Below are positions 57,618 to 59,088 of a stretch of DNA of 64,000 nt, piece by piece. Each line of letters opens with the position of its first letter. Position 1 is the stretch's first letter. A program made the position numbers and the translations under genes. The stretch is from Clostridiales bacterium (lineage in GTDB: Bacteria; Bacillota; Clostridia; UBA1381): contig JAQXZB010000041.1 in NCBI GenBank assembly GCA_029226975.1, positions 1-64,000 on the forward strand, in the 5' to 3' direction. The notes beneath the pieces were generated by a model, which was not told where the DNA came from, did no database searches, and saw nothing but the letters and a program-made list of their open reading frames with translations.

Positions 57618-58463
57618 ATGGAAACAAGAATTATAACAAAGGAAACCGAGAGATTATTTGAAAGGCATCTTTTTGAAGCGGAACGAAGCAGCAGCACCAT
57701 AGAAAAATATATGCGTGATATTCGCTTTTTTAAAGATTGGCTCGGAGAGCGCGGTATAGATAAGGCGGCAGTGTTGGAATATAAGCACAGGCTTTGCGAA
57801 AAATACGCACCCAAAAGTGTAAATTCGATATTGTCATCATTAAATGCATTATTTGTATTTATGGATTGGCACGAGTTGAAGGTCAAAACCTTAAAAATCC
57901 AAAGACAGATATTTGCAGACACAGACAAAGAACTTACAAAGTCTGAATATGAAAGACTGCTCACAGCGGCAAAAAACAAGAAGAACGAACGTTTATATTA
58001 TTTAATGCAGACCATAGCAAGTACGGGTATACGAATTTCCGAACTAAAATATGTAACCTGTGAAGCGGTAAAAATCGGGCAGGCAGTTATAAGCTGCAAA
58101 GGCAAAATGCGGGTAGTTTTTCTGCCCAAACAGCTGTGTAAGCTGCTTAAAGGCTATATTAAACGCCAAAACATAGAACGCGGCGCTGTCTTTGTTTCCC
58201 GGAATAAAAGACCCCTTGACCGTTCGCATATATGGCGAATGATGAAATCCCTGTGCGAAGCGGCGGGAGTTTCGGCAAAAAAGGTATTTCCCCATAATTT
58301 AAGACATCTTTTTGCCAGAGCCTTTTATTCCGCGTCAAAGGACATTGTGCGTCTTGCGGATATTTTGGGACATTCGAGTATTAACACCACGCGCATATAT
58401 ACAATGGAAACGGGAGAGGTGCATCGCAGGCAAATTCAAAGACTGGGTCTGCTGAGATGTTGA
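57618..58463 (+). CDS. Tyrosine recombinase (XerC/D-like), candidate DNA invertase
   Basis: This 281-residue recombinase has an N-terminal SAM-like core-binding domain (about 8-95) and a complete catalytic set: R139 (STGIRISEL), K163 (CKGKMR), H226 and R229 (HNLR), H252 (LGHSS) and nucleophile Y261. The protein should be active. It is not xerC or xerD by context, since it stands alone beside a pair of 17-bp inverted repeats flanking a promoter. Phase-variation recombinases such as RecV share this organisation. It could also be a leftover of a mobile element. Confidence 0.85.
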   Translation: METRIITKETERLFERHLFEAERSSSTIEKYMRDIRFFKDWLGERGIDKAAVLEYKHRLCEKYAPKSVNSILSSLNALFVFMDWHELKVKTLKIQRQIFADTDKELTKSEYERLLTAAKNKKNERLYYLMQTIASTGIRISELKYVTCEAVKIGQAVISCKGKMRVVFLPKQLCKLLKGYIKRQNIERGAVFVSRNKRPLDRSHIWRMMKSLCEAAGVSAKKVFPHNLRHLFARAFYSASKDIVRLADILGHSSINTTRIYTMETGEVHRRQIQRLGLLRC

Positions 58464-58471
58464 AAATAAAA

Positions 58472-58497
58472 AATCACATAATTCAAATTATGTGATT
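58472..58497. repeat. Left inverted repeat of the candidate invertible segment
   Basis: AATCACATAATT-CA-AATTATGTGATT is a perfect 12-bp palindrome around a CA centre. The 17 bases 58477-58493 recur inverted at 58738-58754. It lies nine bases after the recombinase stop codon. A terminator role is possible, though the following T-run is poor. Confidence 0.75.
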
Positions 58498-58530
58498 AAA
58501 AATTTATAAATACATATGTTTTATGTCTGT

Positions 58531-58559
58531 ATTATAGCATTAAAAACATTATTTGTCAA
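58531..58559 (-). promoter_or_regulatory. Perfect sigma-A promoter, leftward, inside the invertible segment
   Basis: Read on minus: TTGACA (58559-58554), 17-bp spacer, TATAAT (58536-58531). As placed it would transcribe into the 3' end of the recombinase gene, antisense. Confidence 0.85.
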
Positions 58560-58609
58560 TATGTTTTTTCGAAAAATTGTTGTTTTGTCATAATTAAGGC
58601 ATGGTTATA

Positions 58610-58641
58610 AGACCGATGAATGTATTTTTTTGCATCGGTCT
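58610..58641. other. Hairpin inside the invertible segment
   Basis: AGACCGATG pairs with CATCGGTCT around a 14-base loop that contains a T-run. The T-run is in the loop and not after the stem, so this is not a standard terminator. It may bind an accessory factor. Confidence 0.5.
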
Positions 58642-58737
58642 GATTTGTTGTACTGTTTTTTGCTGTTTTTTCTTAATATTATGATATTTGCCATCATGGC
58701 AATCGATACGGCGTGTAAGAAACAAGCCTAAAATACA

Positions 58738-58754
58738 ACATAATTTGAATTATG
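58738..58754. repeat. Right inverted repeat of the candidate invertible segment
   Basis: This 17-bp sequence (ACATAATTTGAATTATG) is the exact reverse complement of 58477-58493. Confidence 0.75.
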
Positions 58755-58851
58755 AGGAATATTGCTTGCTATTTGACAAAGTAAGAACGAAAAAACAGAA
58801 AGTCTGAATACTTAACCAAAATGTACCGGGCTTTCGGAGAGGGTGAAGTTA

Positions 58852-59088
58852 ATGGAGGAACTTGAAACGATAATACTTGTCGCGGCGGTGATTTTGCTGT
58901 TGTTTATATTTGCCGCGGCGTTGTATATAAGAATAATACGTCCATTTATCGAAACAAGGGCATACATAAAAATGGAGATGTCCCGTGCACCGCGAAGCGA
59001 ATATAAATATTGGCGGCATGAACTTGTAAGACTCTATGTTTACCATATACCGATATTCGGGTGGCTGATTGTGAGATTGATAAAATAA
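58852..59088 (+). CDS. Small membrane protein, candidate target of the invertible promoter
   Basis: This 78-residue protein has a strong N-terminal membrane helix (about 5-28, IILVAAVILLLFIFAAALYI). A charged middle (RAPRSEYKYWRHELVRLY) and a hydrophobic C-terminus (HIPIFGWLIVRLIK) follow. I do not recognise the family. GGAGAGGG is about eight bases before ATG 58852. The GTG at 58843 overlaps that site and is not favoured. No promoter is visible between 58755 and the gene. Confidence 0.65.
   Translation: MEELETIILVAAVILLLFIFAAALYIRIIRPFIETRAYIKMEMSRAPRSEYKYWRHELVRLYVYHIPIFGWLIVRLIK

Follow-up and report, generated by a model that had tools for sequence, protein, structure and literature searches.

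The DNA analyzed here is a stretch of 64,000 nucleotides from a Clostridiales bacterium (contig JAQXZB010000041.1), referred to below at its full length as the window. The region of interest contains a gene for a tyrosine recombinase, a short promoter-bearing segment enclosed by two inverted copies of a symmetric sequence, and a gene for a small membrane protein. Along the forward strand the following features were delineated:

57618..58463, plus strand: Xer-like tyrosine recombinase, 281 aa, ATG start, proposed invertase of the neighbouring segment
58472-58497: perfect palindrome around site 1
58475..58494: predicted recombination site 1, symmetric and dif-like, with the centre TTCAAA at 58482-58487
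58477-58493 and 58738-58754: exact 17-bp inverted repeats
58495..58736: predicted invertible segment, 242 bp between the sites, delimited by family comparison
58531..58559, minus strand: TTGACA-N17-TATAAT promoter of the sigma-70 type, directed at the recombinase (OFF orientation)
58610..58641: dyad AGACCGATG-N14-CATCGGTCT, 50 bp from the -35 element
58737..58756: predicted recombination site 2, inverted, with the 6-bp centre TTTGAA at 58744-58749
58852..59088, plus strand: single-pass membrane protein, 78 aa, proposed target of the ON orientation

The first-pass annotation of this region had registered an intact tyrosine recombinase, two exact 17-bp inverted repeats and one perfect promoter facing away from the next gene, and all these elements were found again. 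The open reading frame of the recombinase retains the six active-site residues named there (R139, K163, H226, R229, H252 and Y261), while the promoter lies on the minus strand and coincides with the consensus in 12 of 12 positions, no other match in the region exceeding 10/12. The gene of the membrane protein starts with ATG and has GGAGAGGG upstream. It had been described as lacking a visible promoter, and a scan of the plus strand between the second repeat and 58852-59088 indeed gave no promoter-like site. The position 58695-58700, calculated earlier for the -10 element after inversion, is also correct.

The recombinase matches the Phage_integrase family of Pfam (1e-30). Its best curated model is of the XerA type and its relatives in PDB are XerA and XerD. 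Nevertheless the cut-offs of Xer resolution recombinases were not reached (150 bits vs 220 for XerA, 131.5 vs 329.6 for XerD and 110.5 vs 335 for XerC), nor were those of tyrosine-type DNA invertases similar to FimB/FimE (36 bits vs 221 for NF007370 and 32 vs 222 for NF007371). The enzyme is predicted to catalyze strand exchange.

The inner arms CATAA and TTATG together with a 6-bp centre correspond to the geometry of dif. Since the arms at the window locus are symmetric (12-bp perfect palindrome), at one locus alone only the centre is informative. It had been cautioned in this respect that the near-palindromic nature of each repeat makes their inverted match less independent than 17 bases suggest, which is true for a single locus but loses its force across a family of related cassettes, where the centres are decisive. 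Relatives were sought in the GTDB family, in the genome collection and in the order, and about 95 distinct loci were obtained, with recombinases 44–74% identical and originating from Clostridia, for the most part from herbivore-gut MAGs. One of the loci, L135, belongs to an isolate, Massiliimalia timonensis Marseille-P3753. The family site is symmetric and dif-like, TACCACATAA-TNNNNA-TTATGTGGTA, with the half-site consensus TACCACATAAT. In 74 loci it is located 3' of the recombinase stop codon (median distance 9 bp) and has an inverted partner ~240 bp further. The central bases vary from locus to locus, and within a locus the 4-bp centres are exact reverse complements in 74 of the 75 loci with a site pair (71/75 as first paired, 74/75 with three partner choices revised), the valid 4-bp figure being that of the unfiltered pairing because loci of later steps were pre-filtered on a 4-bp match. 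Direct or palindromic centre pairs were registered in none of these 75 loci, and shuffled pairing produced on average 3.6 mirrored centres and at most 12 (10,000 shuffles). Mirroring reaches 6 bp, as all 12 loci with an edge base other than T/A mirror that base, and this extension was unfiltered. Chance likeness of two palindromes is ruled out by these family statistics.

The same data bear on the reading that the palindromes are terminators or protein operators and that the promoter produces antisense RNA against the recombinase, no inversion taking place. It draws on the fact that site 1, read on the minus strand, forms a hairpin followed by a T-rich stretch, and that the promoter is aimed at this site from a distance of ~35 bp. 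However, neither function needs mirrored, locus-specific centres, which rule out a plain terminator or operator, and homologous segments found in both orientations (see below) would stay unexplained, so that this reading is hardly credible. Antisense transcription may accompany the OFF state of an invertible promoter as a side effect.

The host genome, assembled into 123 contigs (2.8 Mb), encodes two further close paralogs of the recombinase, 74% and 53% identical to it, and both have a palindromic site just past the stop codon and an inverted partner ~250 bp on. Centres of the three cassettes are all different, being TCAA in the window, TCAT in L008 and CCCG in L009. The window cassette and L008 are assembled in the OFF state, the latter with a TTGACA-N17-TATAAT promoter aimed at its recombinase, and L009 is ON, with a weaker promoter aimed at the gene of a 1087-aa secreted protein. 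A search of the host genome for the general site pattern without mismatch returned 6 matches, all at these three cassettes and all adjoining a recombinase of the window's family, and the reversed-pattern control gave 0 perfect matches. The core CATAATTYRAATTATG is absent from the rest of this genome.

As the host has two close paralogs whose sites have similar arms, cross-action is conceivable, and the segment might be inverted by a recombinase operating in trans in a RecV-like manner, with the adjacent gene being incidental. Such an arrangement, however, is not what one would expect when every perfect site of the host genome adjoins a recombinase of this family and when in most loci the site lies 3' of the recombinase stop codon. 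Furthermore, divergent recombinases have divergent arms (CCACGGAAT in L128 and L130, CCACATTAT in L088), also organized as mirrored inverted pairs, and this concerted change means that the arms are tied to the adjacent enzyme. Finally, the centres differ in 26 of the 30 within-genome cassette pairs. All this leaves the action in trans quite unlikely and speaks for recombination of each site pair by its own neighbour. Differing centres probably prevent crosstalk between cassettes, and each cassette would thereby be insulated from the others.

Extra tandem sites, ~33–46 bp apart and of the same orientation, were observed at one or both ends of some segments (L008:5412-5527, L065, L030, L028, L073, L124 and L024). 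In L008, for instance, the partner site is present as three tandem copies 45 bp apart. They could allow alternative inversion lengths or small deletions.

Promoters of the segments are close to the sigma-70 consensus, with a median score of 14.0 vs 7.5 in shuffles. They are directed to the recombinase in 52 loci and to the next gene in 16, and 6 loci are ambiguous. States read from MAGs are only majority states, and assembly errors are possible in them. The ambiguous class includes L043 and L028, which have longer segments (~400 bp) with a consensus promoter in each direction, so that the target might be transcribed in either orientation, or antisense RNA might be produced in one of them.

Where segments are alignable over most of their length, those in the same state align directly and those in different states align in the reversed orientation, as was observed in four groups: L110/L115 (84% identity inverted vs 62% direct), L098/L099 (83% vs 61%), L111/L112 (80% vs 59%) and L030/L065 (80% vs 65%). 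The recombinase genes of all four groups align directly, at 83% in the case of L110/L115. It follows from these oppositely oriented segments that inversion happened repeatedly in the family. The comparison with related genomes, suggested earlier as a check, was thus productive for these four groups and not for the window's own inner segment, for which no homolog in the opposite orientation was found among the relatives. Traces of inversion were also registered in assemblies. In G024 two contigs have exactly 77 bp in common, comprising the inner end and tandem sites, and then continue into the recombinase in one case and the target gene in the other. In G031, too, the overlap of two contigs measures exactly 77 bp, and it begins at the site. 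Both junction types are therefore present in these two MAG assemblies, and the fixed overlap, most likely a fork of the assembly graph built with k=77, indicates that both orientations probably existed in the G024 and G031 samples. A contig end lies no more than 500 bp from the recombinase on its 3' side in 15 loci, and on its 5' side in 3. Breaks of contigs at the sites (G024 C2/C42, G031 C5/C7 and the 15 loci) could serve as a sign of active inversion that needs no data beyond the assembly. Taken together, homologous cassettes in both orientations, mirrored centres and assembly forks make the initial suggestion of a promoter-inversion switch well supported, and live inversion at 58475-58756 itself is presumed.

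The description of this switch as locked in OFF, on the other hand, was not supported, since the recombinase and the sites are intact and OFF is the assembled orientation, no more. A once invertible and now decayed element, fixed in OFF with the membrane-protein gene being silent or driven otherwise, would agree with the assembled state, with the single orientation known at this locus and with the outer arm of site 2, which is imperfect (ATTATGAGGA) and off consensus and could for this reason have lower activity. But a decayed element would hardly be expected to keep all catalytic residues, exactly mirrored 6-bp centres, a promoter with a 12/12 consensus match and an open target gene belonging to a conserved family. 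OFF is, moreover, the commonest assembled state among the relatives (52/68). Loss of invertibility is therefore improbable, and the region is better regarded as a functional switch captured in one of its two states.

Between the sites there is one more element. A strict form of the dyad, AGACCRATG-N8..22-CATYGGTCT, occurs ten times in 70 genomes, and each of the ten copies lies either within an invertible segment or at one that is broken off (window 58610-58641, G010, G014, G019, G031, G040, G042 and G055). Its looser version, AGACC..GGTCT, was registered in 33 segments out of the 68 with an assigned orientation, in each case upstream of the promoter, and has a length of 31–36 bp with one exception. 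Distances from the dyad to the -35 element cluster near 40, 50, 60, 91 and 124 bp, though the phasing statistic is only suggestive for sequences related by descent. The almost constant length and the helical phasing speak for a protein bound there. The inner stem positions covary, as is expected for a symmetric operator and a hairpin alike, and a hairpin role therefore retains some plausibility. The dyad was also considered as a known RNA, and this was dismissed because Rfam registered two tRNAs over the window and nothing else. An ordinary terminator was rejected as well, since the window copy has no immediate T tract and no terminator-like match in the scan. As the strict pattern is absent elsewhere in the 70 genomes, a switch-specific role is preferred, and the dyad is possibly an accessory or operator site.

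Genes located behind the second site encode predominantly secreted or surface proteins: 30 of 67 products have at least 250 aa and a hydrophobic N-terminal stretch, and SLH, LRR_5, InlB-like repeats, dockerin and cohesin were found among their domains. Other targets include TetR regulators (6/53), SLOG proteins, helicases and others. Some switches (L056, L069, L091, L070, L032 and L121) lie ahead of helicase/ResIII, SLOG-family or TIR-like genes, which look defence-like rather than surface-related. The 78-aa protein of the window matched no Pfam family. In L111 and L117 a homolog is encoded beyond the switch, after a TetR gene, and in L114 one comes directly behind site 2. In G055:C68 the elements follow one another as dyad, promoter (ON), site, TetR gene, gene of a 651-aa protein with C-terminal SLH, membrane-protein gene and gene of a second surface protein. 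There is thus a family of single-pass membrane proteins of 70–95 aa, seen at L137, L138, L111, L117, L114 and in the window (58852-59088), which occur in switch operons together with TetR genes and with surface proteins containing SLH. Since homologs belong to switch-linked operons, the proposed target is of a gene type repeatedly placed under such switches, and the product may have a role at the cell envelope.

Based on these data one can assume with high probability that the region is a self-contained phase-variation cassette, in which the recombinase flips its own adjacent promoter segment. The enzyme encoded at 57618-58463 would bind two symmetric dif-like sites, 58475-58494 and 58737-58756, and strand exchange within their 6-bp centres would flip the 242-bp segment, inversion being enforced by the asymmetry of the centres. 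In the OFF state the promoter would fire back to the 3' end of the recombinase gene via the site-1 hairpin, possibly affecting its expression, and 58852-59088 would be left without a promoter. After inversion the promoter would appear at ~58672-58700 and drive this gene (ON), so that expression of the target should depend on orientation. Conservation is the one ground for ascribing function to the promoter and for linking the recombinase with the sites, and both assignments are therefore presumptive.

A broader proposal, which is tentative and which we would sooner doubt than accept, is that such cassettes are distinct multi-copy orthogonal one-bit memory units of Clostridia. Each would have a private recombinase and symmetric dif-like sites with a 6-bp centre as an anti-crosstalk address, and a factor, either shared or specific to the cassette, would bind the dyad and set the flip direction or couple the flip to promoter activity. 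As to the phase-variation cassette proposed above, if that reading is right, many uncultured gut Clostridia have several independent promoter switches legible from sequence: a switch is recognized by its recombinase, its sites are paired through the centre, and its state follows from the promoter direction. Existing metagenomes could then be scored for whether genes of surface proteins, regulators and defence-like functions are ON or OFF, and cassettes with private centres could supply synthetic biology with orthogonal switches.

Switches of this general kind, with an invertible promoter setting ON and OFF, are already known, and the mode of action of the cassette is very probably that of fimS and other invertible promoters. 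With the invertons of gut bacteria it shares short inverted repeats that enclose a promoter in the vicinity of genes for surface proteins. PhaseFinder surveys of invertons distinguish Firmicutes_A motif groups 139 and 125, and adjacent recombinases, mirrored centres or an internal dyad are not mentioned in the portions of that report available to us (PMC11892184). In the accessible part of the literature on the site sequence and on invertible promoters the window's cassette family was not found, the motifs of groups 139 and 125 being outside this comparison.

As regards Xer/dif, the models and structures most similar to the recombinase are those of XerA/XerD. Its sites, however, are symmetric, paired and inverted, and it is a multi-copy accessory gene scoring well below the XerD/XerA cut-offs. 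Symmetric dif-like sites with private centres suggest a simple route from a Xer recombinase to an invertase. RecV switches of Clostridioides difficile (cwpV, flgB, cmrRST) share with the cassette a Xer-family tyrosine recombinase, the origin from Clostridia and, presumably, the control of surface traits, and the layout had initially been assigned to the RecV type. A further common feature is seen in cmr, where an internal promoter is part of the switch in its ON orientation (PMC8844915). RecV is distant from its targets and works in trans, its substrates being several imperfect repeats unlike one another (PMC2784873, PMC5903667). The promoter of cwpV lies outside the inverted segment and control is exerted by termination (PMC2784873). 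Here, in contrast, the recombinase adjoins its own sites and each of the three host cassettes has a recombinase and sites of its own, so that the initial assignment is not supported as far as the layout is concerned. The invertible site Cdi7 of C. difficile R20291 has the recombinase CDR20291_3416 nearby and is RecV-independent; compared by description only, it is not presented as a multi-copy cassette family in the text available to us (PMC5903667). In E. coli, fimB/fimE-fimS also combines a tyrosine recombinase gene with an adjacent promoter segment of ~300 bp having short inverted repeats, and the direction of the promoter sets ON or OFF. Unlike fimS, the window cassettes have one recombinase each, with the site immediately after it, and the recombinase is Xer-like and the sites are symmetric and dif-like, with a cassette-specific centre. 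In its layout the window cassette is thus closer to fimB/fimE-fimS or Cdi7 than to RecV.
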